Of a stretch of 29,087 nt of DNA, positions 1,049 through 20,709 are shown piece by piece; position 1 is the stretch's first letter, and the number at the start of each line of letters is the position of its first letter. The stretch is from a virus. A model generated the notes under the pieces. It did no database searches and was not told the DNA's origin. It worked only from the letters and a program-made list of their open reading frames with translations. Position numbers and translations under genes: made by a program. Location: the IMG/VR virus record IMGVR_UViG_3300006790_000082, positions 1 to 29,087 of that record; one strand, given 5' to 3'.

Positions 1049-4000
1049 ATGGCTAATACTGTTGAACCTGGTACATATGATTCTAAAGCAGATCCTAGAG
1101 CCCTAGAGGCAAATTTATTAGCTAGTCAAATAGGTGATGCAGTATATTATTATAATAATAAACCTAGGTTTTATGAGGGTGAAACTGCTAAGCAGCTCAT
1201 CCGAAGCACTTTAGAAGAAAATTTTACATATGAAGCAGAATTAAAAGGTAAACATTTAATAGCATATGTTACAAGGGTTTTAAAAGATGATGAAAGTATT
1301 GCCCTTTTAAATAATGAATCAAATAGAAGCAGGATTAATGACTTAAAAAATAGAAAAATTGTTTTCGCGCATGTCTTAGGGTTCGAAGGGCATGGATTAC
1401 CAAGAAGTAAAAATGATGAAATGTTACAAACCATGGTCGGCGCGTATTATTCTTTTAAGGAAGATAGTGACAATGAATTCAATAATGTTAAAAAAGGTTC
1501 ATACGTTTGGGTAAAAATATTTGGTGAGAATACGGCTGAAAAGATTGAAGGTTTTTCTGGGCAGTTAATAGGTCTTTTTGCACATGCGCAACCTCTTGTA
1601 GATTTAGTAGTCGATGAGCGCTCGAAAATAAAATTTTCACCTTCATGTAAAACAGAATTAGGATATACTGGCTTGTCTGGTAAATTATTAAGAGGTTTAA
1701 CAGATCCTAGACCATCTGTTGGTCAGCCAGTTATAAGAAAATTTAAAACTAAAATAAAAACTGGTATATACGGAAATGGTTCTGCTCAGACAAAAGCGCA
1801 CTTTAATCAATGTTTATATTCTCATAAACAATCTTTTGGTTATGAAGTATCTCCGTCTACAAACCGAGAAATGACTTTGGGGTCTCGCAACTCATTTATA
1901 TGGGTTGGGCACTTAAGGAATAATGGGTATTTAGATATTTTAGATCGTCCAGCTGATCTAGGTCGAGAGACGATCATATATGCACCGATGACACTTAATG
2001 TGTATGCCCCCATAGAAATAAAGTATTATTTTCACGATCGCGGAGGATTTGGAACAGCATGGACTAATGGTCCGTATAGCACAACTGATAATGCGATTGA
2101 AAATGCGACTGATGTTGGGAACGATTTTACTGAGAAAGTTGCGCCTGGTATTGCTGACATGATTAGAGATAAAAGAAATTTTATACTTGTTATTCCAGAA
2201 ATGGCTTTCTCTAGAGGCTTTGGCACTGCAGATGTTGAAGACGACGCTATTCTAAAATACCAAACACTTCTAGGAGAGAATGAAAATCCAATTAAAATTG
2301 GAGAGAAACCTAGTTCTAAAGTGCAAACAATAAGAAGTAAACTCAAGTCTGAATCAGCACCAATTGTAATGAAATACCTAAAAAGAAAAATTTCACTCAA
2401 CGGTCCTGAATCAATCACAGTATTGCAAAAAACACATCTAAGAGAAAGAGAGACTGTTACTTTTGATGGATCTTATACTGGAGGTAATTTTAGTAATTTT
2501 GATGCTGAAGTATTAGAGGTTATAAGGCAATACCTAGGACAATCAGCTTTTGACAACATAACATATAAATCAATTATAGCTGATGGATTAGGCGCAATTA
2601 ATATGGCTTCCATGGCTAAAACATACCCAACTTATGGTCAGCAGTCAGGATTTAATAATGTTGTTATTGACAGAATTGATTATATTGAGAATGGTCAAAA
2701 CTTAGGAAATAGTTATAATTTTTCTGAATCTCCTCTGTTGTCTTTTTATAGGGATTATATTAGTATAAGTCCTCGTTTTCCTAGGTTAGAATTTAATTAT
2801 GTAGGGTTATCTAAACCGCCGGCTCCATCAGGCGACGGAGAACGATTTCCTGGAAAAAAAATGTTTAATGAGATAGGCTTTGTAACTGAGTATTTAAAAG
2901 GTATAAAAAATTCTGGGCCGCCTGAACAAAGGTTTTTTGCAGAGCCACTTGGAACATCAGGGCCTTTAATAAGCATGCACACAGTGTCTGAAGTAGATCT
3001 AGGTGCAAAATATAGTTTTTATTTAAGGACTGATTCTGACAGGATGTTGACTAGCCAGAATCAAATACCAAATAGTACCTTAATTAATTTGCCTTCTGAC
3101 GACAATGTGCCCGATCATGCTGGCTCATCGGCTAGAAGATTGTCCGATGGCGTCTTACAAGAATATGCAAAAAAGAAACAAGATCTTGTGCCTGACCTTA
3201 AAAGCTATGAGTCTTTAATAGAAAGTTTAGATGATCCAATAAATCGCTTACGTGTTCCCGAAATCTACCGTAAAAATACGAGTGAATATTTAAAAAATAG
3301 AGTTGATTATCACAAATATGAGGAAATTATAAGACAAGAAATAGAGATAAAGAGGTATAAGAGAAATAGAGCTAAGATGGTGATGGTTTTAAATGATAAG
3401 AAAAATGGTATTTTAAAACAGTTAGAAGAAAAGAAAGCTTTTTTAAATTCACAAGAAGAATTTAATACTATTTTTCCTAAAAACTCAAATAACGTTAATT
3501 CTTTTTCCATATATTTTGATTTTAACGAAAAAAATGTACCAGTCAATAAAGATTATACTTTTAAGACTGCATATGAAAGATTGAAAAAAGATGATTTAAA
3601 AGTACCCACTTTTAATCAACAAACTGAGCAGAAAATTTTTGTTGCACAATTCGCTAAAGAGGATTACTCTGGACAACTATCTGGTATATTTGATATAATA
3701 TGTAGAGAAATAGCTCAAGGCGAGGCCTTGGAGGAACTAAAAAATTCAATTGAAAAAACAATAGAAAGCTTAGAGCCACTTGAAACAGTTGGGCCTGCAA
3801 ATAATGAAGAGTGTGCGCCTGCTCCACTAACACTAGACTTTTTAAGAAGAAATGAAGCACCGGTTACTTTTAATCGCGCTGACAGAAGAATTGATGAACT
3901 AGCTTGTGAGGGCAAAAACATTAGAGTTGTTTCAAATTATCGTGATTTGAGACAAATGATAGAATGGGATCCTAATATACCAAGTTTAAAATCAGAAGTG

Positions 4001-4981
4001 ACTAGCAAAAAAGGTATTAATGCAGCTACAAGCTTGACTTCGACTGCTCAGGATGGTCTTTATCGCACAAAACATTTTAAGTATAAATCTAGAGGCAGGA
4101 ACAATAGCATCAAATTTAGAAATAGTCCACCAATATGGGCTTGTATATCTAAAAAAGTAGAAGAAGCATGGGAAGCTGCTTGTAATATATCCGGGTACGT
4201 TCCATTCAGGGTGTTTAACGGAATAAAAGGATTTTTAGATCCATCATTGGGTGATTCTGCTGATCCTACTCCTGGAATTAATATATACCAAAGCGGAATT
4301 GAAGTTGGGACCTGGGGATTGACTTTAACTGTTGACAATCCGATCGCTCCTTATAATGGTAGTGGAGATCCTGTATATAGTGTGTTTACAAACACATGGT
4401 CTGGTAAATTTTTAGAAACATATCAAGACGAATTATATGAACTGGGTGTATTATCAGATTTAACTTTCTCTAGCCTTGACGGCACTTTTGGAATATCGGG
4501 CAGATATTTAGACAATGCTTATGAAGGATTTTTTTCTAGGGAGAAAAGAAAAGCAGAAAACTGGAAAAATGCATCTGATTCATCTTATAACGATTCAACA
4601 GAAGAACAATATGATAATGTTATGAATTCTGCAGATGGTTCAGATATTGTGCCCGATGGTGCAAACCCACTTCTTTGGGTTTTAACTTTTTGTGAAAGAA
4701 GTGGAATGAAATGGGGAAATTCATTTTTTATGAGAAAAAGACATAGAGGTCCTAGAGAGGGAATACAATTTTTTGGCTTTGCAAATCGATCTGATACACC
4801 AATTTCTTGGGATCTAGCAGAACAAAAAAGAATTTCAGCTATTTATGGTATAGAAGATGTAGTAGCAAGAGTAAATGCAATTTCTTTTCCACAGACAACT
4901 TATGACGCACACATGCATTTTCAATACTATTCAGGGCCAGCAATCATTCCATGGAAAGAAATTGAAGGGTATCGAGGATAA
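1049..4981 (+). CDS. large hub/lysin-like virion protein with OB-like, hydrolase-like and M15-like regions
   Basis: This protein has 1310 residues and no signal peptide. In order: (1) about residues 85-190, an OB-like strand pattern including YVWVKIFG (152-159), reminiscent of gp5/VgrG-type baseplate hub proteins. (2) About 300-530, an alpha/beta-hydrolase-like pattern: HDRGG at 329-333, VIPEM at 381-385 and ADGLG at 511-515 where a nucleophile elbow would sit, with Gly513 in place of Ser. (3) About 700-810, a charged helical or coiled-coil stretch. (4) About 1000-1300, an M15 D,D-/L,D-peptidase-like region with GTWGLTLTVDNPIAPY (1087-1102), GMKWG (1219-1223) and HMHFQYY (1288-1294). The large size and position beside a spike-like gene suggest a cell-wall-acting baseplate component. 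The gene is certain; domain assignments are by eye and moderate at best. Catalytic activity is doubtful because expected residues are replaced. Confidence 0.9.
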   Translation: MANTVEPGTYDSKADPRALEANLLASQIGDAVYYYNNKPRFYEGETAKQLIRSTLEENFTYEAELKGKHLIAYVTRVLKDDESIALLNNESNRSRINDLKNRKIVFAHVLGFEGHGLPRSKNDEMLQTMVGAYYSFKEDSDNEFNNVKKGSYVWVKIFGENTAEKIEGFSGQLIGLFAHAQPLVDLVVDERSKIKFSPSCKTELGYTGLSGKLLRGLTDPRPSVGQPVIRKFKTKIKTGIYGNGSAQTKAHFNQCLYSHKQSFGYEVSPSTNREMTLGSRNSFIWVGHLRNNGYLDILDRPADLGRETIIYAPMTLNVYAPIEIKYYFHDRGGFGTAWTNGPYSTTDNAIENATDVGNDFTEKVAPGIADMIRDKRNFILVIPEMAFSRGFGTADVEDDAILKYQTLLGENENPIKIGEKPSSKVQTIRSKLKSESAPIVMKYLKRKISLNGPESITVLQKTHLRERETVTFDGSYTGGNFSNFDAEVLEVIRQYLGQSAFDNITYKSIIADGLGAINMASMAKTYPTYGQQSGFNNVVIDRIDYIENGQNLGNSYNFSESPLLSFYRDYISISPRFPRLEFNYVGLSKPPAPSGDGERFPGKKMFNEIGFVTEYLKGIKNSGPPEQRFFAEPLGTSGPLISMHTVSEVDLGAKYSFYLRTDSDRMLTSQNQIPNSTLINLPSDDNVPDHAGSSARRLSDGVLQEYAKKKQDLVPDLKSYESLIESLDDPINRLRVPEIYRKNTSEYLKNRVDYHKYEEIIRQEIEIKRYKRNRAKMVMVLNDKKNGILKQLEEKKAFLNSQEEFNTIFPKNSNNVNSFSIYFDFNEKNVPVNKDYTFKTAYERLKKDDLKVPTFNQQTEQKIFVAQFAKEDYSGQLSGIFDIICREIAQGEALEELKNSIEKTIESLEPLETVGPANNEECAPAPLTLDFLRRNEAPVTFNRADRRIDELACEGKNIRVVSNYRDLRQMIEWDPNIPSLKSEVTSKKGINAATSLTSTAQDGLYRTKHFKYKSRGRNNSIKFRNSPPIWACISKKVEEAWEAACNISGYVPFRVFNGIKGFLDPSLGDSADPTPGINIYQSGIEVGTWGLTLTVDNPIAPYNGSGDPVYSVFTNTWSGKFLETYQDELYELGVLSDLTFSSLDGTFGISGRYLDNAYEGFFSREKRKAENWKNASDSSYNDSTEEQYDNVMNSADGSDIVPDGANPLLWVLTFCERSGMKWGNSFFMRKRHRGPREGIQFFGFANRSDTPISWDLAEQKRISAIYGIEDVVARVNAISFPQTTYDAHMHFQYYSGPAIIPWKEIEGYRG
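4052..4939 (+). other. region encoding M15 peptidase-like fold with altered zinc-ligand positions
   Basis: This covers residues about 1002-1297 of the 1310-residue protein. M15_4-type peptidases typically show a block of the form HxWGxAIDINPxxNPY, then FxWGG, then MHFE. Here I see TWG at 1088-1090 with NP and APY at 1097-1102, MKWGN at 1220-1224 and MHFQY at 1289-1293. The His and Asp that bind zinc in the first block line up with Gly1087 and Thr1094. Only the last zinc His (His1290) is kept. About 117 residues separate the first two blocks, longer than usual. Confidence 0.5.
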
Positions 4982-4989: not shown

Positions 4990-6426
4990 ATGAGTGTTAG
5001 AATTCATGCTTCAACATCACAAGCTGCCGGCTTAACTTACTATACTTTTAATGTCGCTAATGAAAATGGCGAGATTGAAGCTAGATCTTTCACAAATAGA
5101 GCTAAAGCCGAGCAATTTTTAAATGAACAAAAACAAAAGTATCCAGAAGCTAGTATTAATAACAAGCCTTTAAAAAGCTCAGATCCATTCAATGACGGTA
5201 CTTTTGTAGATCAAAGTGATACTAGCGGTCAATCATTTCAAGCACCCGTTGGCACTGGGCAAAAATATGATAAAAATGGTAACCTACTGCCGGCTGGACA
5301 AACAGAGACTACAGTTAGTGTAAGAAACATTGGAGAAGATAATCCAAGCGTAGCTGCTGTAAGTGATCAAACTAACAGCGAGGTCACGGGTCGCCCAGCC
5401 AGACTTTCTAAAGAAGCAAGGGATTACTGTGGCCTAAACCAGGAAGATTTTCAAGTTATAAAATCTTTAGTTGCTGCTGACATTGAAGAAAGAGTTGGTG
5501 GAACTTTAGGTGGTCATAGAATTCAGGCAAGAGTAAAAAGATTAAACTATGAATGTGAACACACAATTCAAGGCCCTGATAATAATGCATTTATTGTTTT
5601 AGGAAATGATCGCACTAGTGATCTTACAGACCCAGGTCATGGTGAAAAAGGTCATACACAGTGTGATGCTATAGATATTGTTGCTGGCCTGGGTGGATAT
5701 TGCCCACAGGAAATTGAGAAAATAGAGGTAGAAGATTCTAGGACCGGAGAGTTAGTAGTTCAAGAATCACCAGTTCAAACTAATCCTAATTTTTATGTAG
5801 ATGCCGCTAGAATTTATATCTCTCAGAAAACAAATTGTGATAGGAATTTCGGAATTGGTAGGTTTGGCAAGAAAACTACAAATAGTGGCGAGGAAGATTC
5901 TCGTAGTGCTAAAGATATAGGCAAATATGGTGGAAAATCTGCAGTTGTAGCTAAGGCAGATAACATTAGATTAATTGGTCGTGAAAGCATAAGAATTGTT
6001 ACAGGTACGGATCAATTTAATTCAGTTGGGGGTAAAATTACTGGCAAGCATGGTATAGAATTAATAGCCATGAATAAAGTAGAAGATTTACAGCCTTTAG
6101 TAAAAGGTCAAAATTTAGCTCTAGCTTTGACAGTTATGCTTAATAATATTGAGGCAATAACAGAGATATTTCAAGCTTACGTAGATTATCAAATGAAATT
6201 TAATAAAGCATTAAGCCAACATACTCATATAACACCTTTTTATGCTGGTAAAAGTCTGCCTTCTGAAAAAGCTATGGTGGGTGGTATACAATGTGATATT
6301 GACACTATGCTTAAAACAAATTTGTCAGTTATTAAACAAATTACTAATTTACAAGGTGTAAAAACTAACTTTTTATCGCCCAGCGGAGACGCTTATATCA
6401 TGAGTCGCTTAAACAAGACTAACTAG
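4990..6426 (+). CDS. baseplate spike-like structural protein of the marine T4-like type
   Basis: This protein has 478 residues. The first 130 are low-complexity and polar. From about 150 onward the sequence looks like a conserved virion protein: GHTQCDAIDIVAG, VDAARIYISQKTNCD, then a repetitive beta stretch with VVAKADNIRLIGRESIRIVT and GKITGKHGIELIA, similar in style to the beta-prism or beta-helix spikes of gp5 and VgrG. The C-terminal part has a helical segment, then HTHITPF, NLQGVKTNFLSPSGDAYIMSR and an Asn/Lys-rich end. I recall close relatives annotated as structural proteins in T4-like cyanophages, but cannot verify this here. Spacing of 8 bases from the upstream gene and GAGGA at 4974-4978 support the start at 4990. 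It may supply the spike for the preceding hub-like protein. Precise role unknown. Confidence 0.88.
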   Translation: MSVRIHASTSQAAGLTYYTFNVANENGEIEARSFTNRAKAEQFLNEQKQKYPEASINNKPLKSSDPFNDGTFVDQSDTSGQSFQAPVGTGQKYDKNGNLLPAGQTETTVSVRNIGEDNPSVAAVSDQTNSEVTGRPARLSKEARDYCGLNQEDFQVIKSLVAADIEERVGGTLGGHRIQARVKRLNYECEHTIQGPDNNAFIVLGNDRTSDLTDPGHGEKGHTQCDAIDIVAGLGGYCPQEIEKIEVEDSRTGELVVQESPVQTNPNFYVDAARIYISQKTNCDRNFGIGRFGKKTTNSGEEDSRSAKDIGKYGGKSAVVAKADNIRLIGRESIRIVTGTDQFNSVGGKITGKHGIELIAMNKVEDLQPLVKGQNLALALTVMLNNIEAITEIFQAYVDYQMKFNKALSQHTHITPFYAGKSLPSEKAMVGGIQCDIDTMLKTNLSVIKQITNLQGVKTNFLSPSGDAYIMSRLNKTN

Positions 6427-6434: not shown

Positions 6435-9400
6435 ATGGCTCTCAAGAAAAAACAAACACTTTTTAAGAAAATTCAAAATATATTTAAAGGAGGCTCGAAT
6501 GGCAATGGCGAAGGCTTAAGCGACACAGGCGGCCTAGCTCCTTTTAATGAGTCGGATGGAGAAAGCGACGGTGTACACGACTTTGTAAGCTTTGTCTTAG
6601 AACAAGAATTAAACGATATAGAATTAGATAATACTTGGTCTTTAGAACAAAATCAAAATGTTGCGCAGAATGATTTTTTATATAAAGCAAATTATATGAT
6701 TAATCAATATTCTGAAAAACAGTTACAAGACAATGGAAATCCTGCTTTGTTACCAGCAGGCCTTATAGATTATTCTGAACCGTTTTGGGAAGATGATTTT
6801 CCTGATAATATGGCGCCCCCTGCAGGAGATATTGTTTCAGCAGGTGGTTTTACTGGCGAATATGGAGAAAAGCCATCTGAAAATGACAGATGGCACCAAG
6901 AAGTTGGTGGGCCATTAATTAATAGTCTACTGCAAGATACTAAAATATTATTAGAGAACAGCTGGCTACAGCAAAACTCGCTCAATGGCAAAAGACTTAC
7001 GGCATGTAATACCTTAATTTTAGCTTGTGAAGAATATTTAAATACCCTAGAAGGTTTCTCTTTTACAACAAAGGTTGATACTGGCGCCCCACCCACTAAC
7101 TCTACTACTGCCGGTCCACTACCGACAGATGCTAGTTTACCAAATAATGTAGTGGGTGAATTATTCACTCATTATATTGCCTATAGCTCAACACCATTGC
7201 GATTGGCGCCTACTCTAGATCCAGATGATTCTGTTAGAGATTGGGATGATACTAACTTTACTTATGTAAGCACTATTGCTAGTACTAGCTCAAAAGATGA
7301 AATTAGAATAACAATTCCACAAGGTACTGGTATCATAGTCACTGAGATTGTTGAAGGGCGATCTGGCCAGTGGGTTGGTTTTGTTTTAGATCCTGCTACG
7401 ACAAATGAAAGGCCTAACACTGCTTACTACACTAGGCCTGAATTTATTAGAAAATTATCTGGTTCTCCCACTGATCCATTAGTTTCTGCTCCTGTGAACA
7501 TATCAGCAGAAGATTTTGTTTCATCAGCTCTTAGTAGAGGGGAGAGTAATTTACCACCTGGCTTAAAAGATTTTAGTCCTAAAGATAATGATAATTGGCT
7601 ATTTTTATTTCCAGATGAAGTAGTTTTATCTGAATATAACTTTATAGAACATGCCCAAAGTGATAATGCTCAGGAATATGGCATAAACCCGCTTAATCTT
7701 GAAGATGACATGCTTCCTTTTCGGTATCAAAGATATTCACAAGGACATTTTTATTTTATATTGGCAGAAATTGAAAGATCTGATACAACGATAAATACTT
7801 TAGAACAGGCCAGGGAAACAGCATGGGCAAATTTATTAAAATATTTTGATAAAGATAAAGCGAGCGAAGGTTTAGAGAATCTAAAAGAGCAATATTTTGT
7901 GCCAGTTGTATACAGAGTCAACACAAATAGTACTGGACCAAATCAAAAAATATTGTTTGCAATTCGTGCTTCATATATTGACTCATTACCAAACTCAAAG
8001 CTTCCATTTGCTGATAATTTTGATCAAAACGACGATAATGAAAAAGAGTTTATAGGCGGAAGAAATTATTCTGTGACTTTTAGAGTTTCTGAAGTCAAAC
8101 AAATTTGTATGGATCTAAAAAACCGCATTAAAGATATCAAGGGGAAAATAGAAAAATCTGATAAAAGCATTAAAATATTAGGCTCAAACGATCAGCCTTG
8201 GAATGCAGATATTATAGCAAATTATCTTTTATCTGACGATTCTAGCGACGGTACCGCAGGATCTGGAGATTTTCCAACGCTTCTAGCAGATTTATTAGAT
8301 CGTCAGGTATTTCCCAGAACAACAAAAAATGATTATATATCTACAACAATCAAACAAGCTGCTAATATTATAAGAGCTGGATCAACAACTGATGGTGCAA
8401 ATCACTTAATACAAATTGGTATAAGGGACAATGGTGTAATCGGACCTGGAGTGAGAGAAACAGTCTCTTATGTTTTGTTTTCGCCCGATCCGGATTCTCT
8501 AAAGGATGATCAAAATTCTCATTTTAATCTTTTTTACTTTGATCCTCACATAACTCAGCCTGAATTAGAAAGGGGAATACAAAGAAGTGCAATTGTAATG
8601 CGTACTGGGCTTTCCAACTTTAGAACTAATTTTGAAGGAACTTATGGTAGTATGGTTCTTCATTATCTTCTGTCGCATATGAAGCTTAAGAAGGGCTTTA
8701 AAGACCTCGCCGCGGCGACTGATAAAAAGTCAAATCAGTGGTCAGAGCTGTTATTAAATTATACTGTGCCGCCGGTCAAAATTGATAAAGATTCTCCACC
8801 TGCGTCTGATCAACCCGGAGAAGAAGGTGGAATGACCTTAGAGGAGATATTAGCGGAGCTAGCTAAATCTTCTCCAGTTCATGGTCGTAGACAAATAGAA
8901 CTAAGAGAGATGCTTTTAGCTAAAAAGCAAGAATTTTTTGAAGCACATAATGAAGCCATCCCAGCAACAGATCCTGAAGTATCTAAAAAGAATTTAGAAA
9001 AAAAATCTAAAGAATTAGATAATCTAGATTCAGCTGGTAAAAGTATAGAAGGACAAATTCCATGGCCGGTTAGATATATTTACGAAGGTATTTATAATTC
9101 TTTAGATGTAGAAGCTATTATTGCACTAATAATGGCATGTATACAATCAAAACTTGGTATACCACTCACAGCTGAAGCATTATGTGAAGCTGCAATAATA
9201 GAGATAATTCAAACATTAGGAATCGATCAGACACAAAGTGTTTTATTGGGTTTGGCATCAGAAGATCCATCAAAATATAGTGATTTTATAGAATCAGAAG
9301 AGCCCGTGCCCGGCTCATCGATTTCAGAAGATATAGATTACACCTTTAGCCAAGCCCCAATTGCAACCTACATGGCTATGGATCCTAATGCTGATCCTGC

Positions 9401-12400
9401 TGTAACAGCTGTTATTAAAGGTTTGGAGATGGGCGGAACAACAGTTAACTTAGTCCCCGGCCCACGACCCCAGGAATTAATTAATGATAGTGGCCAAGGT
9501 ATTGTTTTTAATTTTCCTGATGTGCCCGATAACATAGCTGAGTCTATGATCGATACTGTCTATGGCAAAGATGTGCAGGTTAATCCATTTTATACCTGGC
9601 CCGAAATTGAAGATCAAAGAGACTATTATCACACAATAGGCTTTAATTCACAGCAAGCTAGGGCAAAATTAGTACAAGATGGATATCTAATTCCAGATGA
9701 ACAGCAGTATGGGCCCCTTCTCAGTGGTGACGGCGTTTTAGATCAATTGCAGGCTGCTAGCGATCAATTAGCTAATAGACTAAATAAGGCCGGCGTCGAT
9801 AGCACTTTGGCCTCAAACATCGGCGCTACTTTTCAAGACGCAGATAATTATTTAACTTATCTTAAATCACTAATGAGTCTCCAAGATCTATGTGAATTAT
9901 TGGCAGGTAATTTATTGGATGGCCTTGACGATTTACTTAGAGATCCTTTAGGATTTATAAATGGCGGCGCAGGAAACTGGTTTGATAGTTTTATTGAGGA
10001 ATTGAAGAGAAAGTTTTCTTTTCCTGTACCAACCTTTAAATTTCCAGACAATCTAAAAACTGATAGTCACATGGGTAGTTATGGTGAAAAACTACTTGAA
10101 GCTGTATTGACATTGGTAGTTTCAGTGTCTGCACAAATTTTAAATCTTGTTATTAAAGATGCATTGCTTAAGTGTATTGAGGAAGGAGACACAGATTTAG
10201 GTCCAGCAAATGATCCAAATATTGGCGCACCACCAACTATACCTATTCCCAATCTACCTGCTGTTTTAAACAGACCTGGCGTGACTGGGCAACTTCCAGC
10301 AACAATTGCCTTGCCTTTGGTGGAGGAATTAATAGATAATATTTCTTTAGGTCAGCTTTGTGCTTTGCTAAAAGGAGAGGCCTCTCGCCAAACATTATAT
10401 AATATTTCGTTAAAAATTAAGTCAAAGGAAGACAGCCTTATAGACGATTATATTATTTTATTGAAAGCTGAGCCTTACAGGTATGAGCAAGCTGAGGCAA
10501 GTAATATAGCTAGACGAGCTGTGCGTTCAAGCATACGTACAATGGGTGAGATAGAAAATATGTTTAGAGCCATCGGCCAAAGTGGTAATTTTGACATATG
10601 CAACTTCTTGTCACCAACACAAACTATTTTAGATGATGTTTGTATTGCTTTTTATGATCGTAAAGGAAAATCTCTAGAATTACAAGAGGCCGGCTTGAGC
10701 GAACAAGAAGCTGAAAGCCAAATTGATCGTGATTTAACTAATTTAAAAAATAAAGTCATCGGTCTAGCACCTTCTTTATTCCCTGGTCGAAATGGTATAG
10801 GTGACATTATTCCACAGCCACCAGATCCATGTGAGGGCGGTTATTTCCAAGTCCCTCCGGGTGTTCAAAACGCCATGAGCTTAATTACTGATAATCTCTT
10901 ATCAAATGTGAAAGGCTCTTTAATACAGGATATGACAGCACTTAAGTTTTTTGCGACTCCTCCTAGGGCAGTAATGGCGTTAAAGGACCCCTCAAAACTT
11001 AAAGAAACATACGACATGTTTACAAAAGCTGCCACAAGACCATTTCAAAAGGAATGTGTGGCATTTATTGGTAATCCGGATCTTTTTCCAAACCAATCAA
11101 TTGAAAATATTGCAGCGTATCCTTTAGTATATGGTGTTGCTGATTTAGGATATCATCGTCACGCTGGACAATTTGATGGAAGTATAACTATAGAATCCCC
11201 TTCAATATTATTTCCTGAGGAGCAAGCAGAAAAATTAAGAGAGTATTATGCTGAGAGAGGAATCGAATATAGAATGGAACAGGATTACTTTAGGCCAACT
11301 AGTTTTATCCCCATGCTTAATTCTTTTAGGACCGAAGCAGATAATACAGATCCTTTATTTCCTTTATCTGAACCGGTATATGCCCTTTTCGATGGTCAAC
11401 AGAAAATTCCTATTTTAAAAGACCTATTAAAATCATTTATACCCGATCAAGAGGTGAGTGATAGCGAGAAAAAACGACTACTATCCAATGCCTTAGAAGA
11501 AATATATGGGGAAGACGTAAAGCCTAAATATTTGGCAGAAACAGTTATGGAAGCTAAACATTTACAGACCCCAGCGCTAAATTCGATTAGATTGCAGTCT
11601 GGTGAAGTTGATTTAGAAGACGTTATACAAGCCCAACAAGCGATTAAATATCCTTTATTAATACAACAACAAGACCAGATGGAATATTTTGGCCTTATTG
11701 CCAGGCCTTACTCCATACACACTAGATTACGCGATATTTGGGGGCCTTCTATAGGAGAAGATGCTGGCGATGATGATGTTTACCCATGGTATCAAATGTT
11801 TAACGCATATATAACTGGCAAAAGATTAGGACAAGGGGCAAATGTTGATTTATATTTTGAGGATCCTGCTAGGATAAAAACTGAAGAACATATACCATTA
11901 ATTATTAACCCTAAAGATGAGTGGAAAGAGAATGGTGTTGTAAATAAAGGTATATTAGATGACCCCTCAACGTGGAAAGAGGATTACGAAGAAGGCAGCG
12001 ATAGTTTGCCCTTTGGTCATCTCGATTTTAACACATTATTAGCTAAAATAGATAATATTCCTGGCTTTTCTACTTTGTTACCTCCCTTGACATCTCTTTG
12101 GCGTAACGAACTGGACGGATCAAACTCTACTATGTGGCTTCAAGGCTTTTTAGATTTGACTTTGGGAGAGGCTATTGGCTTTACAGACGAAAGAGTAAAA
12201 GCTTTATTTCCTAATTTTCCAGGTACTGGCAATGCATCAATCATGCTGGGAATAACCACAGATGAATATGGTGATTTTTCTTTTATTCCAGCATATGCAG
12301 TCTTTAAACAAACATATGTAGATCCGCAAAGCCCGCTAGCTGCCTCACAAGATGATATGGTATCATATTTTTCAGCTGATACAGATGCTGTCAATACTGA

Positions 12401-15400
12401 GTTATTTGAGTATTTATCAGATGATGAAGTGTTTCCTCAAGTTTTAGGATATGATAACGGCCCACTACAAGGATTTGAATCAGATCATATCAATGCATTT
12501 TTAAGACTTTATAATCAGCGCAATCTAAATCCAAATGTTATTAGATATGAGCTTCCTACTAGTGAAGTTAATACTGCGATTGATATGGAAACAGTTTTAA
12601 ATTATCCACTAAATTCTAATTATGAATCTGTTATTCAAGCACAAAACTTATTGCAATCAAACAATGAATTTATAAATAGAAAGCACAGCTTATTATACCA
12701 AAATATGCTAGGTGCCAAAAGAGGTGATGTTGTAAGTGCGGTCTCTTCTTTTGCAGATACGTATAGGGCCATGAAAGCTAAGCTATCTAAGGGCGACAAC
12801 CGCGAAATACCCCCCAATCCATTAGTTGGTTTTGAAAGTGCTGAAGATGTAGTGTTTGACTTAGCAGCTTCACATCCAGTGTCAGACGATATTCAACAAT
12901 TAGTTTCATCATTATATGGTGGGTCTACGGCGCCAATGCTTAGTGCAACTGAAAGATATGAAACTATTAAGCAATATTATAATCTTAAATTAATACAAAC
13001 TGATAAAACTTTGTCAAATCTTTCAGACAAGCCAGGCCATTTAAATGTTGATCCTACTAATTTCAAAGCTCAAGTTTTTGGACGCTTGTTGACAAGCAAA
13101 TTTTTCTCTAAAATAGAGGATTACTTAGATTTTGAGAGTGAAGAGGCTGCCACCGAGGCTGGTTTTACCAGCGCCTCAGAGAGAAGAGAATACCTTAGAA
13201 ATCAAATGGAAGCAATTTTAACTTCTCATGGTTTCTCATCCTTACAATATGCTTATTCAAACCAAATTTTTTCAAAATTAAAACGATCGCGGCTTCAAGA
13301 GCGTGGATTTATGAAAAAATTATGGAATAAAATGCTTGTTAATACATTATCTGATAATAATTCAGGGATTCATCCTGAATGTCGTAATCTTTTTGATAAC
13401 TTAAGTCTACAGACTTCTGATGAGATTGAAAACATAGAGACAGATTTCTTTAAAGTTGATGAAGTTAAACAAGAAATAATGAATTTTTATAAAAAAATGC
13501 TTTGTAGGGATGTATATGAAAAAAGTGGTCCAGATGAAAACGCTGTCAAAGATGCGTTAACACATGGAATAATAAAGTTATTAATAAAAGTATACTGTTT
13601 AGAGATGTGTATTGCAAGTGTTATATCATGGGACAGTTATGATTTGGGAGATGTTTTTGAATCAGATATTATGGTCAGTACCATAATAAACAATATTAAT
13701 ACTGATGATACAATGCAAGACGCTGGTTTGAGTTTTGGCGAGATCTATATGCATGCTTTAGAGATCGTCAGAAAAGACAATAATCTTCAAGATAATGTTG
13801 AATTAGCTGAGTTTTTAAATGGCACCAGCCCGGTAGCTTATATGATAGCCGACGCGGGCCGTAAAATTACTTCTATTGTTAGTAGTCTATTCCAAGGAGT
13901 AAATTATCAACCAATTTCCACAGATTTACAGTTTGAAGTTTTAAAAAACTCAGACCCTAATTTTATAACAGACTATAAAAGAAAAGTATTAGCCAACTAT
14001 AATCTTAATACATTACCAGATAATTTAAATCCTGAGAGATATAAAAAATTATATGATGTTGGCAATATTGAATATACTCTAGATGCTAGATTTAATCAAA
14101 ATGTTTATACTATGAATTATGGATCTGGTAATCCTCAAGACTTAATAGCTGGTACTTTAAATGATTCTGTCGGATATGATGGTTTTGATATAGATCAAGT
14201 GCTACCGAATAACAACAATACTCCTGACTTGTGCAAAAAATATATTAACATTTATGGATTTAATAATCGCGATAATATTATTAAAAACAAAAAATCTAAA
14301 AACTTTTTACACTCTGTTCCATACAATTTTTATCAAGCTGAGGGATGGCCTGGACAAGCATTAGATAGCCCTTCACAAAAAATTTCTTACCATAGTGAAG
14401 AATATTCTAGAACTTTGCTGGATAAAGATAGTGATCATAGACCAGGAGGAGTCCCTATTGAAGACTATGATTATAATGTCATTCAGCATGCCTACAGAGC
14501 TTTAGGAAATTTTGCAGCTTCAAGCAGTTATTATGGTCTAAATGATAAAATCTACGAAGATACTTCTTATAATACAGAATATGCTAGATTTATAAAAATG
14601 AATGATTTAGCTAGAAAGCAGCTTGGAGGCTCTGACGCTTACAATAAAGAAATGCACCAGCATCTACAATATGGTAACATATTCAATGGTATGTTTGGCA
14701 ATATTGTGTTTGAGCCATATGTAAAAATTGAGGACTATACTGAGGAGGACTTATTAAGTGAAGAGTATGCATCGCAGTTAAACTTGACTTATTATGTTGA
14801 AAAATCAGAGAGTCAACCTACAATAGAGCCCTGTAAGAATCCTTTTCAGATATTTGAGGTAAAAATAAATAATCTAGATGTATCTGGCTTTTTATCCGAC
14901 CTTAACAAATATCGCCAGGAAGATAATATCCACAACTCTTATATTTTTGATTGTGTGCCTCTGCCAGTTTGGAGCCATTTCTATAATGAGATATTTTTAG
15001 AAAAATTAAATCGCGAGCAAAATTCTGAATTAAAAGACTTTTTTAATATATACGGACTAACTCCTTTCTTTAAGAATATTAAATTTGGATTGAGAATGAG
15101 CTATGTTTCAGCTGTTAGCGGAGAGGACCAATACTCAGTCGTTTCAGACGATGCTAAGGAAAATTACTTAATTAAAAACTTCATGAAAGATACTTTTATG
15201 CCTGGAAAACGAAACTATCCCGGAGTTGACGAGGTCTCAGCATGGGGTTTGAAGAGCAGTAAGACTTTTTATAATCAGAGACCATATTATTATGGTGACG
15301 CAGATATGTTAGCTAATAAAAGGTTTAAAATATGTAATGAGCTACATATACCTATCGTAGAGCTAGAAAGAGAAATAAATTTTATTGAGGGTCAAGCTGC

Positions 15401-17855
15401 TTTTTCAATAGAGGGTGATTCTTCAAACACTATTTTCTCTCTGGATAAGCTAGGAGTCTTTTCTGCTGATACTTATGATATTCTAGGTGGCATAGAAAAC
15501 TTATTTGTTCCTCCTTCCGGCGCGTCTTTACCTGACGATTATACTAGCCCAGCTTCGTCGACGCCTCCCGGACCTTTTAGTGAGAGTGAGGTCGATAAGG
15601 TTGTAGCCGGCTCAGAGTACCAGAGCATTATAAATATTGTAAATTCCAACGTTCCAGAAAACGAACAATATATGAAAGACTTAGCTAAGTATTATGCGGA
15701 AATATTCAAAAATGCAATAAATCCTCCTAGTATGAATAATCTAGGAGTTATAGGCTGGGAGGTCGACCCCGGAGATCCTTTTTGGAAAAATATAGCTAGC
15801 GTTTTAATCAATAACCCTGATACATTTGGTAATTTAAATATTACTACCGCTACTGGCGAGTTAAACGCGGCATGGGTTGATCCAGCTCACCCCCTTGGCG
15901 CAAATGATGATACATATAAAACATTATCTAATAGAATTACAGCAATCGATTGGTTTTTGCAGGGTGGATATGAAATTTGGGCTGGAGACGGAAATATTTT
16001 AGGCAATCTAACAGAGACTCAACTACAAATAGCTAAATTACATCCAGATTTTGTAACAGCTGAACAGCAAGCTGAAGATAACAACACAGCTGCAACTTTC
16101 CTGTATAAAGATAAGATAATTTCTGGCTATAATTATCCTGGATATTATACAGTTGTAATCAATCCTGAAACGGGAGCGCCTTATCCTGGTGTCGGTGCTA
16201 CAATCAGAGCACAGAGCTTTAATTGGATGCTTCTTGCAGTCGAGGAAAATTTACCAGCCATATCATCAGCAAATACAGGCTTAAAAAGTCCTTTGGCACA
16301 TCCAGACGGAGGCTTGCAGCCAGCTTTGGTGACTAATAATTTTAAAGATTATATCCTAGAAGACGGCCAACCAAATGATTCGCTAGTAGGCCCTGGAGGG
16401 TCTGTCACACTTTCTACGCACAAATATTTTAAAGTTTGGTATAATATTGCACGTGCTATAAGCTACAACTCACCAGATAACGTTGTTGTCGCGACCGGTC
16501 CTATATTTGCAAAGGGATATGAAATTTATAATGGCTTAGACAGGTTTGTCACGCCTGTTGATGAGGAAGTTGAGGAAATAATTTTTGAAGCTCCTGAAGC
16601 TAGCGACGAGGCCTCTCCCTTACCTCAGCCTCCGTATCTACCAAACTTAAGTTCTGATGTTTCTAATATCGTCCAAGAGCTTCTTGATACAGAAAATGCA
16701 GAAGCTATTAAGCATATCACCAATAACTTTCATCAATTTTTCTATGGTAATCTAGCACAGGACATGATTGACGAGATGAAACAAACTCCTGAATTTAGAT
16801 TGCTTTTTGAACACTTATTCCCAATCAAAAGATACATGGCTTTAGGGTTTATGATGGGCAGTGATAGTTTATCAAAATATATTAAGGAGCCAACAGATGT
16901 TTTGGATATTACAAAAGGAAGAATATTTCAAATTGTCGATATATTAAAGAATTCAAGTAATGATTATACTTTCTTGCCTGGAGTAGTGGGTAATTTTGAA
17001 ATTGACGAGATACAAGGTTCTGAATTTGATACAGCTGCAGCACAGCCTGATTTATCAAAACAAATAGAAATGATTATCCTCAGGACTTCTTATTTAATAT
17101 TAAAAGGCTTTGTGGAGGTAACAGATCCTGCTGTAATTATTGCAAAAACTATTATTGATGTTGCCAATGCTGCCCAGCAAGCTATTGTTGCTGGAATTGA
17201 AACTGGAATAAGAACTGCCAAAGATGTTGCAAACGCAACAAAACAAGCAGCTCAAGCAGCAATGAAACAAATTGAAAGTCAAGTTATTTTAGCTACAATA
17301 CCGATAGAGACATCTATCAACATTATAGGTGAAATACCATTTAATGCTGCCGGCAATAAGCTCTCTAGTTTGATAGTTTTTGAAACTAGTGATGCAGAGA
17401 TAACTAATTGGAATATATCAGCTTCGCCTCTTCCAGACGGCGCCTCAGACTTTTTAGATTCTGATCAAATAGACACGTACAACAACATTAGAGATAGTAT
17501 AGAGTCTATGACAGATTTATTATCTGATTATAATAATGCGAAAAATGACTTTAACAATGTCGACACTGAACTTAAGGGCGCCTTAAAAACACTTGAGGAA
17601 GAATTAGAAGAAGCCAAGAAAATTATGAGAGATATTTTTCAATCTCCATACCTGTTGCCTGGATTGTGGGCTGCAATGATACCTTCTATGATGCCTTTCT
17701 TGGGTGGTGTTGTACCTCCGCCTTTCCCCGGCGGCCCGCCAAGTACAATACCAGGTATGATTTATATAGCGATATTATTCTTAGATGCTTATGAAGAATC
17801 GCAGCATCAAAAATATACAGATCTTAATGATGTAAATTGCGAAGATGAACTTTGA
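6435..17855 (+). CDS. giant 3806-residue virion-type protein of unknown function
   Basis: One uninterrupted frame of 3807 codons. The stop of the previous gene (TAG) lies within its Shine-Dalgarno site AGGA at 6425-6428, six bases before the ATG. The N-terminus is basic (MALKKKQTLFKK). A beta-rich, possibly SH3-like stretch lies at about 275-340. Short hydrophobic helices recur with a Leu-Cys pair (L916-C917, L1152-C1153, L1308-C1309, I1388-C1389). A long hydrophobic run lies at about 1221-1245. Near the C-terminus are an Ala-rich helical stretch (3564-3617), a coiled-coil-like stretch (3677-3737) and a hydrophobic, Pro/Gly-rich segment (about 3739-3784) with PPPFPGGPPSTIPG. No enzyme motif is evident to me. 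Its place between spike-like and gp25/gp6 genes points to a baseplate or tail-tip component, or a protein packaged and ejected with DNA. It is not obviously a tape measure. I do not recognise a named family. Confidence 0.92.
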   Translation: MALKKKQTLFKKIQNIFKGGSNGNGEGLSDTGGLAPFNESDGESDGVHDFVSFVLEQELNDIELDNTWSLEQNQNVAQNDFLYKANYMINQYSEKQLQDNGNPALLPAGLIDYSEPFWEDDFPDNMAPPAGDIVSAGGFTGEYGEKPSENDRWHQEVGGPLINSLLQDTKILLENSWLQQNSLNGKRLTACNTLILACEEYLNTLEGFSFTTKVDTGAPPTNSTTAGPLPTDASLPNNVVGELFTHYIAYSSTPLRLAPTLDPDDSVRDWDDTNFTYVSTIASTSSKDEIRITIPQGTGIIVTEIVEGRSGQWVGFVLDPATTNERPNTAYYTRPEFIRKLSGSPTDPLVSAPVNISAEDFVSSALSRGESNLPPGLKDFSPKDNDNWLFLFPDEVVLSEYNFIEHAQSDNAQEYGINPLNLEDDMLPFRYQRYSQGHFYFILAEIERSDTTINTLEQARETAWANLLKYFDKDKASEGLENLKEQYFVPVVYRVNTNSTGPNQKILFAIRASYIDSLPNSKLPFADNFDQNDDNEKEFIGGRNYSVTFRVSEVKQICMDLKNRIKDIKGKIEKSDKSIKILGSNDQPWNADIIANYLLSDDSSDGTAGSGDFPTLLADLLDRQVFPRTTKNDYISTTIKQAANIIRAGSTTDGANHLIQIGIRDNGVIGPGVRETVSYVLFSPDPDSLKDDQNSHFNLFYFDPHITQPELERGIQRSAIVMRTGLSNFRTNFEGTYGSMVLHYLLSHMKLKKGFKDLAAATDKKSNQWSELLLNYTVPPVKIDKDSPPASDQPGEEGGMTLEEILAELAKSSPVHGRRQIELREMLLAKKQEFFEAHNEAIPATDPEVSKKNLEKKSKELDNLDSAGKSIEGQIPWPVRYIYEGIYNSLDVEAIIALIMACIQSKLGIPLTAEALCEAAIIEIIQTLGIDQTQSVLLGLASEDPSKYSDFIESEEPVPGSSISEDIDYTFSQAPIATYMAMDPNADPAVTAVIKGLEMGGTTVNLVPGPRPQELINDSGQGIVFNFPDVPDNIAESMIDTVYGKDVQVNPFYTWPEIEDQRDYYHTIGFNSQQARAKLVQDGYLIPDEQQYGPLLSGDGVLDQLQAASDQLANRLNKAGVDSTLASNIGATFQDADNYLTYLKSLMSLQDLCELLAGNLLDGLDDLLRDPLGFINGGAGNWFDSFIEELKRKFSFPVPTFKFPDNLKTDSHMGSYGEKLLEAVLTLVVSVSAQILNLVIKDALLKCIEEGDTDLGPANDPNIGAPPTIPIPNLPAVLNRPGVTGQLPATIALPLVEELIDNISLGQLCALLKGEASRQTLYNISLKIKSKEDSLIDDYIILLKAEPYRYEQAEASNIARRAVRSSIRTMGEIENMFRAIGQSGNFDICNFLSPTQTILDDVCIAFYDRKGKSLELQEAGLSEQEAESQIDRDLTNLKNKVIGLAPSLFPGRNGIGDIIPQPPDPCEGGYFQVPPGVQNAMSLITDNLLSNVKGSLIQDMTALKFFATPPRAVMALKDPSKLKETYDMFTKAATRPFQKECVAFIGNPDLFPNQSIENIAAYPLVYGVADLGYHRHAGQFDGSITIESPSILFPEEQAEKLREYYAERGIEYRMEQDYFRPTSFIPMLNSFRTEADNTDPLFPLSEPVYALFDGQQKIPILKDLLKSFIPDQEVSDSEKKRLLSNALEEIYGEDVKPKYLAETVMEAKHLQTPALNSIRLQSGEVDLEDVIQAQQAIKYPLLIQQQDQMEYFGLIARPYSIHTRLRDIWGPSIGEDAGDDDVYPWYQMFNAYITGKRLGQGANVDLYFEDPARIKTEEHIPLIINPKDEWKENGVVNKGILDDPSTWKEDYEEGSDSLPFGHLDFNTLLAKIDNIPGFSTLLPPLTSLWRNELDGSNSTMWLQGFLDLTLGEAIGFTDERVKALFPNFPGTGNASIMLGITTDEYGDFSFIPAYAVFKQTYVDPQSPLAASQDDMVSYFSADTDAVNTELFEYLSDDEVFPQVLGYDNGPLQGFESDHINAFLRLYNQRNLNPNVIRYELPTSEVNTAIDMETVLNYPLNSNYESVIQAQNLLQSNNEFINRKHSLLYQNMLGAKRGDVVSAVSSFADTYRAMKAKLSKGDNREIPPNPLVGFESAEDVVFDLAASHPVSDDIQQLVSSLYGGSTAPMLSATERYETIKQYYNLKLIQTDKTLSNLSDKPGHLNVDPTNFKAQVFGRLLTSKFFSKIEDYLDFESEEAATEAGFTSASERREYLRNQMEAILTSHGFSSLQYAYSNQIFSKLKRSRLQERGFMKKLWNKMLVNTLSDNNSGIHPECRNLFDNLSLQTSDEIENIETDFFKVDEVKQEIMNFYKKMLCRDVYEKSGPDENAVKDALTHGIIKLLIKVYCLEMCIASVISWDSYDLGDVFESDIMVSTIINNINTDDTMQDAGLSFGEIYMHALEIVRKDNNLQDNVELAEFLNGTSPVAYMIADAGRKITSIVSSLFQGVNYQPISTDLQFEVLKNSDPNFITDYKRKVLANYNLNTLPDNLNPERYKKLYDVGNIEYTLDARFNQNVYTMNYGSGNPQDLIAGTLNDSVGYDGFDIDQVLPNNNNTPDLCKKYINIYGFNNRDNIIKNKKSKNFLHSVPYNFYQAEGWPGQALDSPSQKISYHSEEYSRTLLDKDSDHRPGGVPIEDYDYNVIQHAYRALGNFAASSSYYGLNDKIYEDTSYNTEYARFIKMNDLARKQLGGSDAYNKEMHQHLQYGNIFNGMFGNIVFEPYVKIEDYTEEDLLSEEYASQLNLTYYVEKSESQPTIEPCKNPFQIFEVKINNLDVSGFLSDLNKYRQEDNIHNSYIFDCVPLPVWSHFYNEIFLEKLNREQNSELKDFFNIYGLTPFFKNIKFGLRMSYVSAVSGEDQYSVVSDDAKENYLIKNFMKDTFMPGKRNYPGVDEVSAWGLKSSKTFYNQRPYYYGDADMLANKRFKICNELHIPIVELEREINFIEGQAAFSIEGDSSNTIFSLDKLGVFSADTYDILGGIENLFVPPSGASLPDDYTSPASSTPPGPFSESEVDKVVAGSEYQSIINIVNSNVPENEQYMKDLAKYYAEIFKNAINPPSMNNLGVIGWEVDPGDPFWKNIASVLINNPDTFGNLNITTATGELNAAWVDPAHPLGANDDTYKTLSNRITAIDWFLQGGYEIWAGDGNILGNLTETQLQIAKLHPDFVTAEQQAEDNNTAATFLYKDKIISGYNYPGYYTVVINPETGAPYPGVGATIRAQSFNWMLLAVEENLPAISSANTGLKSPLAHPDGGLQPALVTNNFKDYILEDGQPNDSLVGPGGSVTLSTHKYFKVWYNIARAISYNSPDNVVVATGPIFAKGYEIYNGLDRFVTPVDEEVEEIIFEAPEASDEASPLPQPPYLPNLSSDVSNIVQELLDTENAEAIKHITNNFHQFFYGNLAQDMIDEMKQTPEFRLLFEHLFPIKRYMALGFMMGSDSLSKYIKEPTDVLDITKGRIFQIVDILKNSSNDYTFLPGVVGNFEIDEIQGSEFDTAAAQPDLSKQIEMIILRTSYLILKGFVEVTDPAVIIAKTIIDVANAAQQAIVAGIETGIRTAKDVANATKQAAQAAMKQIESQVILATIPIETSINIIGEIPFNAAGNKLSSLIVFETSDAEITNWNISASPLPDGASDFLDSDQIDTYNNIRDSIESMTDLLSDYNNAKNDFNNVDTELKGALKTLEEELEEAKKIMRDIFQSPYLLPGLWAAMIPSMMPFLGGVVPPPFPGGPPSTIPGMIYIAILFLDAYEESQHQKYTDLNDVNCEDEL

Positions 17856-17899: not shown

Positions 17900-18295
17900 A
17901 TGAAAGCCATTGGTCCACAAATACCTTTGCAAAGAGACGAAGTTTTTGGGCAATTTTCTCTAATAACAACTTATAGGGAAGAAATTAAACAAAATTTTAA
18001 AAACCTTTTATTGACTGCTCCCGGAGAAAAAATGATGAATCCTGATTTTGGTGTTGGTTTGAGGAATTTTTTATTTGACCCTCGTCAAGCAACCATAATA
18101 AACATCAGACAAAAGATACAAGAACAAGTTACAAAATATATGCCATTTATAGTAAATTTAAAAGTTAATTTTGATCGTAATAAGCCTGAAGATACCCTTC
18201 CTGATTCAAATATTTTATCTCTTACAATTATATATGATGTTCCTAGTCTGAATATTTCATCAGAATTACTAGCTATAAAAGAGGAATTAAATTAA
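17900..18295 (+). CDS. 25: baseplate wedge protein gp25 (GPW/gp25 family)
   Basis: At 131 residues the protein matches the length of T4 gp25 (132). It shows the family signature LLTAPGEKMMNPDFGVGL (about 37-54) followed by NFLFDP, the region conserved between T4 gp25 and P2 gpW. In contractile tails this protein joins gp6 and gp7 in the wedge core bundle and connects to the sheath. Older annotations call the family lysozyme-like, but this is a structural protein and no catalytic activity is implied. It begins after the largest gap in the window with a good ribosome site and ends three bases before the gp6 gene, giving the order gp25-gp6 (W-J in P2). Confidence 0.93.
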   Translation: MKAIGPQIPLQRDEVFGQFSLITTYREEIKQNFKNLLLTAPGEKMMNPDFGVGLRNFLFDPRQATIINIRQKIQEQVTKYMPFIVNLKVNFDRNKPEDTLPDSNILSLTIIYDVPSLNISSELLAIKEELN

Positions 18296-18298: not shown

Positions 18299-20095
18299 AT
18301 GGCAAAGAAAGATAAAAAATTAATTAGATATACAGATAGAGACTTTAGTTCAATTAAAGAAAGTTTAATACGTTACACGAAAAGATATTATCCAGACGTA
18401 TATCAAGATTTTTCAGAAGCCTCTTTTGGGTCTTTGATGTTAGACACGGTATCATATGTTGGCGATGTTCTGTCTTTTTACTTAGATTATCAGACAAATG
18501 AATCTTTTTTAGATACCGCAATAGAATATGATAATATCATCAGACACGGTGAGCAAGTTGGCTATAAGCAACCATTAAGAGCAAATTCTTTTGGAGTTAT
18601 AACTCTTTACATATTAGTTCCTCCGGTTGTTAATGGAACACAGCCAGATAGTGATTATTTACCGACTCTAGTTAAGGGAAGTACTTTTTCATCAACTAGC
18701 GGAGCTGTGTTTACTTTAATAGATGACGTTGATTTTTCGAATGTCGATAACGAAATTGTGGTAGCTACTAGTGATTCAGCCACAGGCGCACCAACATCAT
18801 TTGCGATTAAAGCTTATGGCAAAGTTATTTCTGGAGAACTTTCCGAACAGGTCTTTACCGTTGGGGATTTTAAAAAGTTCCTAACGCTAGGCTTAGGCGA
18901 TCCAAATATTACTGAAGTTGTATCAGTCACTGATGCTGAGGGTAATGAGTATTTTGAAGTGGATTATTTATCACAAAATACTGTTTTTAGATCTGTTGTT
19001 AATAAGGATTCAGAAACCAGCAGGCATGCACCAGAGAAAATTGTTGCGACCTCGGTCCCTAGAAGATATGTTGTTTTTAATCGTTTTGGACAAGTTTTTA
19101 TTAAGTTTGGCTATGGTTCAGAATCTTCCTTGAAGACGGATAATATCACTCACCCATCTAATGTTGTTTTAAAAATGCATGGAAAAGACTATGAAAAAGA
19201 TGTTTCTTTTGATCCTTCAAACCTACTTGAAACTGATAAATTTGGTATTGCTCCAGCAAACACAACTCTTAATGTTGTTTATAGAACAAACAAAGTCGAA
19301 AATGTTAACGTCTCAGTCAATGGTTTGACAAAAGTAAATGCTCCAATCTTTGTTTTTGGCACAGCTGCAACAAATTCCACAAAAATTGAAAATGCAAGGG
19401 CTAGCTTAGAGATTACAAATGAAAAGCCAATATTAGGTGACGTATCATTGCCATCCTCAGCTGAGCTTAGACAAAGAATAAATGATGTTTTTACAACACA
19501 AAATAGAGCAGTTACTGCTGACGATTATGAGGGAGTGGTTTATAGAATGCCATCTAAGTTTGGCAAAGTTAAAAGAGCGAAAGTATTACGTGACCAGGAT
19601 TCTTTTAAAAGAAATCTAAATATGTATCTTCTCTCGGAAGATATAAATGGTAATTTCATTACCACAAATAGTGTTATAAAAAACAACCTTAAGGTATGGC
19701 TCAATAACTATCGAATGATAAATGACACAATTGATATGCTTGATGCTCGAATTATCAATATAAAAATTAACTTTACAGCTGTGGTTGATTACGAACAAGA
19801 TAAATTTGAAGCACTTAATTTAGCTATCAATGAAATACAGAACTTATTTACAACAAAAATGAATATTGGTGAACCGCTCTACATTACTAGCATATATGAT
19901 GTTGTTAATAACTTAGATGAGATTGTAGATGTTACAAATGTTAAAATAGAAAACATATCTGGCGGCAACTATTCCTCTGACACTCTAAATATTGATGAAT
20001 ACATATCTGCTGATGGTAGAATACTATATGCTCCAGAAAATGCTGTCTATGAATTAAAGTTTCCAAATCTAAATATTGTAGGGAGTATTAAGTAA
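18299..20095 (+). CDS. 6: baseplate wedge protein gp6 (baseplate J-like)
   Basis: At 598 residues it is close to T4 gp6 (660). The N-terminus has the typical IRYTDRDFSSIKESLIRYTK and FSEASFGSLMLDTVSYVGDVLSFYLDYQ pattern (about 9-65). The middle has FSSTSGAVFTLIDDVDF. The C-terminal half carries the J-like segment LRQRINDVFTTQNRAVTADDYE followed by YRMPSKFGKVKRAKV, then TSIYDVVNNLDEIVDV. In T4, gp6 dimers form the ring that holds the wedges together and drives the baseplate's structural change; P2 gpJ is the equivalent. GAGGA at 18281-18285 precedes the ATG. The stop codon overlaps the next start (TAATG at 20093-20097), implying coupled translation. Confidence 0.93.
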   Translation: MAKKDKKLIRYTDRDFSSIKESLIRYTKRYYPDVYQDFSEASFGSLMLDTVSYVGDVLSFYLDYQTNESFLDTAIEYDNIIRHGEQVGYKQPLRANSFGVITLYILVPPVVNGTQPDSDYLPTLVKGSTFSSTSGAVFTLIDDVDFSNVDNEIVVATSDSATGAPTSFAIKAYGKVISGELSEQVFTVGDFKKFLTLGLGDPNITEVVSVTDAEGNEYFEVDYLSQNTVFRSVVNKDSETSRHAPEKIVATSVPRRYVVFNRFGQVFIKFGYGSESSLKTDNITHPSNVVLKMHGKDYEKDVSFDPSNLLETDKFGIAPANTTLNVVYRTNKVENVNVSVNGLTKVNAPIFVFGTAATNSTKIENARASLEITNEKPILGDVSLPSSAELRQRINDVFTTQNRAVTADDYEGVVYRMPSKFGKVKRAKVLRDQDSFKRNLNMYLLSEDINGNFITTNSVIKNNLKVWLNNYRMINDTIDMLDARIINIKINFTAVVDYEQDKFEALNLAINEIQNLFTTKMNIGEPLYITSIYDVVNNLDEIVDVTNVKIENISGGNYSSDTLNIDEYISADGRILYAPENAVYELKFPNLNIVGSIK

Positions 20096-20709
20096 TGGGT
20101 ATAAAAAAGTACATCGCTACAAAAGATAACACTATAACTAATGGGTTTGGATTAAATATTTCTACTAGAAAAACTGGTTCGAACATGGGCGCCTCTGATA
20201 TCTTAGAGATTTATTCTGTCCATGGTCAACAAACTACTTCTTCCGTAGAATTATCTCGCGTCTTAATAGAATTTCCAATTAATAGCATATCCGCTGACCG
20301 GACCGCTGGGACAGTCCCAGCCTCTGGAAGTGTTAGTTTTTATTTAAGAATGTTCAATGCTCGACACTCTGAGCAGCTTCCTAGAGATTTTACAGTTAAT
20401 GTGATGGCAGTTTCACAGTCTTGGCAAGAGGGCACTGGCTTAGATATGGAAGGTTATAGTGACGAAAGCCACAGTTTAATTGCTGGCTCAAACTGGATGA
20501 GCGCGTCACAAACAACTGCATGGAATAAAGTGGGCGGTGACTATCATTCAGCTTCTTATGTTGCTGGGGCTAGTAGCACAATGCCTAACTATACCTTTAC
20601 ATTTAAAGATGGAGATGAAGACATATTAATTGATGTAACTTCAGCTGTCGAGGAGTGGATAGCTAATAATCAGCCAAACTATGGATTTGGTATATTTTTA
20701 ACGGCCAGT
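20095..20709 (+). other. region encoding the DNRLRE-like domain
   Basis: Residues 1-205 of the 502-residue protein. The best block runs from Asp180 to Gly199 (DVTSAVEEWIANNQPNYGFG). The start of the domain is approximate. Confidence 0.7.

Follow-up and report, generated by a model that had tools for sequence, protein, structure and literature searches.

What is the role of a protein of 3806 residues encoded immediately before the baseplate wedge genes of an uncultured phage? The IMG/VR source record is a viral fragment of 29,087 bases with no larger genome behind it, and the whole of it is referred to here as the window. A sequence-only reading of the window had claimed that one frame of this length fills more than a third of the window, carries no enzyme motif, lies between spike-like genes and gp25/gp6, and is a strong candidate for an undescribed component with an important job, such as a baseplate skirt, a tail-tip scaffold or an ejected protein. 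Below we examine whether this frame is a genuine gene, which phages carry it, and which roles its position, conservation and predicted folds suggest.

A giant gene under purifying selection

The giant protein X (P0001) is encoded by one open frame on the + strand, from the ATG at 6435 to the stop at 17855 (3806 codons), and its 11,421 bases make up 39% of the window, as had been claimed. A full-length relative in IMG/VR (L001) shows 60-64% amino-acid identity with X across the whole length, with dN of 0.28 and dS of 1.9. Since the identity extends over the full length, dN is lower than dS, and pN/pS stays below 0.55 in all 13 blocks of 300 codons (0.18-0.54, with dS near saturation), X is not a chance frame. 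It is evident that X is under purifying selection along its entire length, including the insert at residues 3011-3400.

X belongs to a widespread protein family

A single-sequence scan of IMG/VR with X recovered two relatives, L001 and L002, the latter being 100% identical to the last 1,335 residues of X. Scans with gp6 and with an 8-member X alignment recovered 80 and 72 loci, respectively, and at these loci 57 complete and 69 truncated ORFs immediately preceding gp25 are homologues of X, counts that include a few near-duplicate loci. X is thus one of more than 120 syntenic homologues and is longer than most of them. The complete homologues are mostly about 1,600-4,260 aa long, and the single short one (703 aa) corresponds to the latter half of a copy broken by a frameshift. 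Three families can be distinguished: family A (>2,700 aa, 28-64% identical to X), family B (about 2,100-2,500 aa) and family C (1,841-2,710 aa), which align in the same order in profile comparison. Judging from these alignments, X is not an orphan but belongs to a protein family that is widespread and undescribed.

No relatives of X were found in bacterial and archaeal genome contigs, and the lack of a match in bacterial genomes argues against a host-derived cargo gene. A tblastn search with the X halves and members of families B and C against 50,697 phage records gave no match, and we found no description of the family in the literature. It is apparently defined here for the first time; its members reach 4,260 residues and keep a constant position within the baseplate block, and it provides a genomic marker for its phage branch. 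The uncultured phages carrying X are apparently marine, to judge from the nearest literature and from the IMG sample series.

A few loci depart from the common arrangement. In L027 a frameshift at about 1380-1402 splits the X gene into two frames, whereas the close relative L030 is intact; the frameshift may be a sequencing error. In L046 and L066 the slot before gp25 holds two shorter ORFs, and X has seemingly been replaced or split. In comparison with the Cys core of X (Table 1), the L066 slot gave a weak profile match of 75% and the L046 slot gave no match.

Anatomy of X and its predicted folds

In an alignment of 27 members, about 2,753 columns, of which X has 2,608, are common to at least 70% of the full-length members. 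X has a core of ~2,600 residues, and its lineage-specific inserts lie at about 2643-2696 and 3011-3400 (Table 1). Among the 21 cysteines of X, 13 show conservation in 24 or more of the 27 members, compared with 233 (6%) of all 3806 positions (P = 2e-11, hypergeometric test, a value overstated because the sequences share ancestry). Conserved hydrophobic stretches lie at about 893-918, 1226-1250, 2379-2395, 3551-3580 and 3772-3790. The small conserved domain at residues 238-355 has the pattern YLPVR..P..GW..PLG..ITVTEIV.S.TG.WVGF..LYT..Y.R and by eye looks like a bacterial SH3 domain; because it has no significant Pfam or PDB match, this resemblance is left as an impression.

Searches of X against PHROGs, Pfam and PDB sequence profiles returned nothing meaningful. 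The claimed absence of an enzyme motif agrees with this result, as no PHROG was found at E<=1 and Pfam gave only a sub-threshold coiled coil; nor does any characterised family in PHROGs, Pfam or PDB match most of the length of X. The structure prediction and fold search that the sequence-only reading had suggested yielded two AF2 models and, against solved structures, only a generic coiled coil. The C-core model, built on the shorter homologue L091, is usable (mean pLDDT 71, pTM 0.67), and the predicted structure combines a helical bundle with an alpha/beta domain and a long hairpin of helices and has a hydrophobic end. For X 450-1620, the N-core model is weak overall (pLDDT 61, pTM 0.37) and confident over the first ~340 aa. 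With Foldseek and VIA-align against solved structures, the C-core model matched coiled coils only (best Z 10 over about 115 residues, a score that helical models can reach by chance), and the N-core model gave nothing above Z 4.3. A likeness of the C-core model to Tc toxins was rejected, as these matches reflect the helical hairpin only. A single fold match of the C-core model is significant, that to A0A516MAR9, an unnamed viral protein in BFVD (E = 1.7e-5, probability 1.00; 898 aligned columns at 10% sequence identity).

The gene block around X

The family A block runs in the order sigma factor, 100-aa protein, 1310-aa protein, 478-aa protein, X, gp25, gp6, 502-aa protein and 1938-aa protein (Table 1), with almost no intergenic gap between the X homologues and gp25. 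Family B has the same order, with proteins of 253, 101, 389 and 341 aa before X that pair with those of family A at profile probabilities of 100, 99.5, 96 and 100%, respectively, and the gene order is common to families A, B and C. The match of the third pair suggests that the 1310-aa protein is the 389-aa core of family B enlarged by further domains.

The location claimed for X is clear on the gp25/gp6 side, where GPW_gp25 and a PHROG baseplate wedge are matched, and holds in part on the 5' side. We infer from motif and position only that the 478-aa protein is spike-like; the 1310-aa protein, of OB-fold/peptidase type, resembles a hub/lysozyme-type protein, and 5 of the 19 members of its family show an M15 peptidase signature, which lies in one of the added domains. 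Seven cysteines of the 1310-aa protein are conserved in family A. The laminin-G-like domain of the 1938-aa protein is located at residues 174-353, and a region near 1478-1577 shows a weak match to animal cell-surface domains, e.g., the enteropeptidase heavy chain.

Table 1. Coordinates in the window of the genes of the block and of the parts of X
Feature	Position	Strand	Basis
gp55-like late sigma factor, block start	59..763	+	phrog_234 E 2.5e-6; syntenic
Conserved 100-aa protein	742..1044	+	hhalign 99.5% with group B counterpart
1310-aa hub/tail-lysozyme-type protein	1049..4981	+	N-terminal region common with group B 389-aa protein; added domains
478-aa spike-like protein (inferred)	4990..6426	+	conserved family A4; hhalign 100% with group B 341-aa protein
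Giant protein X, 3806 aa	6435..17855	+	ORF, full-length homologues, purifying selection
X 1-237, poorly conserved N terminus	6435..7145	+	low occupancy in alignment of 27
X 238-355, small conserved domain	7146..7499	+	alignment A10
X 450-1620, N core	7782..11294	+	conserved in family A, common to families B and C
X 1130-1545, Cys-rich core and hydrophobic helix	9822..11069	+	alignment A9 across A, B, C; HMM hits in G001, G005, G008
X 1550-1900, variable stretch	11082..12134	+	low conservation; pN/pS 0.52-0.54
X 1901-3010, middle core: helical bundle, then alpha/beta domain (predicted)	12135..15464	+	AF2 model of homologue L091
X 3011-3400, sublineage-only insert	15465..16634	+	low alignment occupancy
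X 3401-3806, C core	16635..17852	+	most widely common part of X
X approx. 3540-3735, predicted long antiparallel coiled-coil hairpin	17052..17639	+	AF2, L091 segment helices 927-992, 1029-1085
X approx. 3738-3790, hydrophobic Pro/Gly-rich tail	17646..17804	+	invariant columns, hydropathy
gp25 baseplate wedge	17900..18295	+	Pfam GPW_gp25 E 5e-15, phrog_261
gp6 baseplate wedge	18299..20095	+	phrog_219 E 4e-15
502-aa baseplate-block protein	20095..21603	+	counterparts in immuto, Mel-JY01, LR756508; hhalign 91-98%
1938-aa baseplate-block protein, laminin-G-like domain	21621..27437	+	counterparts in immuto, Mel-JY01, LR756508

X is carried by phages of the Far-T4 branch

All eight long records from the three families contain gp23 above the cut-off, and six contain a sheath match (one above the curated cut-off), which places these phages in the contractile T4 superfamily. 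The 186-kb record G001 also carries portal, terminase, tube, baseplate hub protein and UvsX. Its gp23, the one compared, is nearest to those of LR756508, immuto, Mel-JY01, LR756511 and RM378, suggesting that the X-carrying phages belong to the Far-T4 branch of the superfamily. The window itself holds no gp23 and is tied to Far-T4 through its gene block, and its gp6 is 32% identical over the full length to the immuto and Mel-JY01 counterparts. Uncultivated Far-T4 phages have been described (PMC4360716; PMC7198788), and their proposed hosts are Bacteroidetes (PMC7198788). The sheath is enlarged in these phages: its open frames in G001 (39251-42715) and further long records measure 932-1158 aa, compared with 659 aa in T4 gp18.

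Possible roles of X

The position of X, the conservation of its gene block and the constraint on its sequence suggest a structural role at the baseplate. In our judgment the chances are about even that X serves as a giant structural protein in the contractile-tail baseplate of this branch of Far-T4-like phages, bridging the spike/hub and the inner wedge; X is probably a core part of the injection machine of these T4 relatives. X would be made late, fold around cysteine-stabilised (or metal-binding) helical cores and pack into the space that separates the central spike/hub from the inner wedge (gp25-gp6), so as to link the hub with the wedges and enlarge the baseplate, and its inserts might decorate the surface. 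We infer the presence of X in virions from gene position, and a gene product need not act beside the product of the neighbouring gene. This reading is weakened by the lack of detectable similarity to T4 or HTVC008M baseplate proteins. In profile comparison with 23 T4 and 12 HTVC008M tail proteins, the best probability for X is 3%, whereas the positive control, the C-terminal part of the sheath against T4 gp18, reached 99.8%. The hhalign probabilities are about 1% for gp27 and gp5, which, with no PDB fold match either, leaves room for a shared fold, and about 1% or below for gp7, gp8 and gp10.

The reading is also weakened by the conserved hydrophobic segments, which fit a membrane-acting protein as well. 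The main rival to baseplate bridging is thus an ejected or extruded protein for envelope penetration, borne at the tail tip and released on contraction, whose hydrophobic segments would insert in the host membrane and form or line a DNA path while the M15-peptidase protein opens the wall. The hydrophobic tail after the coiled coil and the adjoining spike and peptidase-type genes are consistent with such a role, as is the immuto slot protein, which likewise combines a coiled coil with Pro/Gly hydrophobic stretches, although its homology to X is not detected. However, the hydropathy peaks of X are modest (window-19 mean <=2.0) and fit buried helices, the known pilot proteins differ from a protein that can reach 4,260 aa and includes an alpha/beta domain, and homology to pilot proteins was not found; we regard ejection as rather unlikely. 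We consider it similarly improbable that X is a new tail component of one Far-T4 branch with no T4 counterpart, that is, a giant cysteine-braced baseplate assembly that couples sheath contraction to crossing of the host envelope (e.g., as a trans-envelope conduit).

Receptor-binding and tape-measure roles fit X less well than ejection. As a receptor-binding or adhesive side arm of the baseplate, X would carry inserts that set host specificity, in line with the lineage-specific inserts (e.g., 3011-3400), the wide length range of the family and the identity among X homologues (28-43%, vs. 51-71% for the 502-aa protein), which places X among the faster-evolving proteins of the block. The C terminus of X is nevertheless its most conserved part, whereas in receptor-binding proteins the tip is usually variable; no lectin or other binding domain was found in X, and the 1938-aa neighbour with its LamG domain is a better candidate. 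A receptor-binding X is improbable in our view. The great size of X, its mostly helical models and its coiled coil could also suit an atypical tape measure or an assembly scaffold, setting tail length or being removed before maturation, but its alpha/beta core and conserved cysteines would be unusual, and a separate family of variable length (666-985 aa) immediately follows the tube and hub genes, where a tape measure is normally encoded; we consider this role very improbable. In G001 the hub/tube cluster, with the tube, the hub (phrog_150), a tape-measure candidate and a LysM/gp53-like protein, lies apart from the X block, so X is probably additional to the standard hub set. X showed no match to gp29 or to the HTVC008M tape measure, and tape measures diverge beyond detection. 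What speaks against an ordinary tape measure of the T4 gp29 type is that X lies in the gp25-gp6 block while another family fills the place in the tube/hub cluster. A gp53-like LysM wedge role is likewise disfavoured, as Pfam finds no LysM domain in X and a ~110-aa family of the hub cluster has a weak LysM match (E 0.003, below the cut-off). With candidates for both elsewhere in a related genome, these two roles are unlikely for X. The claim that X is an important undescribed component is plausible insofar as X is a large, conserved protein of the tail-baseplate block with no characterised homologue.

Comparison with known T4-like systems

The major capsid proteins nearest to those of the X-carrying phages are from Far-T4 (immuto, Mel-JY01, RM378). 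Counterparts of gp6 and the two next genes occur in immuto, Mel-JY01 and LR756508 (hhalign 98% to 58%), in the same order as in the window in immuto and Mel-JY01. In the slot before gp25, however, cultured Far-T4 phages have much smaller, unrelated-looking genes instead of X: a 371-aa protein in immuto and, elsewhere, a chitinase-annotated protein and small genes. X is thus not universally needed, as close cultured relatives manage without it. A profile test detected no homology between the 371-aa protein and X. Near the same slot, immuto26A_156 (L084 16021-17133) is annotated as a RecN-like ATPase, but its sequence looks like a coiled coil plus hydrophobic stretches rich in Pro/Gly, and a tail role seems likelier than one in DNA repair. 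The Cys-core HMM, which recovers X from all three families, found no X in immuto, Mel-JY01, LR756508, RM378, P-RSM6 or HTVC008M; a match in HTVC008M (E 0.007, 36 columns) was taken as chance.

More distant relatives offer other likenesses. The exo-T4 phages also carry very large uncharacterised virion proteins near gp25-gp6, namely CPXG_00133 (1240 aa) and CPXG_00128 (about 8.6 kaa) in P-RSM6 and 'VrlC' (2001 aa) in HTVC008M. In profile comparison CPXG_00133 and VrlC are not similar to X, and the whole-record Cys-core search of P-RSM6 gave no X match in CPXG_00128. The largest exo-T4 proteins come after gp6, whereas X comes before gp25. In T4, too, spike and tip genes immediately precede gp6, but none of its baseplate proteins (gp53, gp5, gp5.4, gp27, gp7, gp8 and gp10) is near the size of X. 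Should X prove to belong to the baseplate, the machine of these phages goes well beyond the design known from T4.
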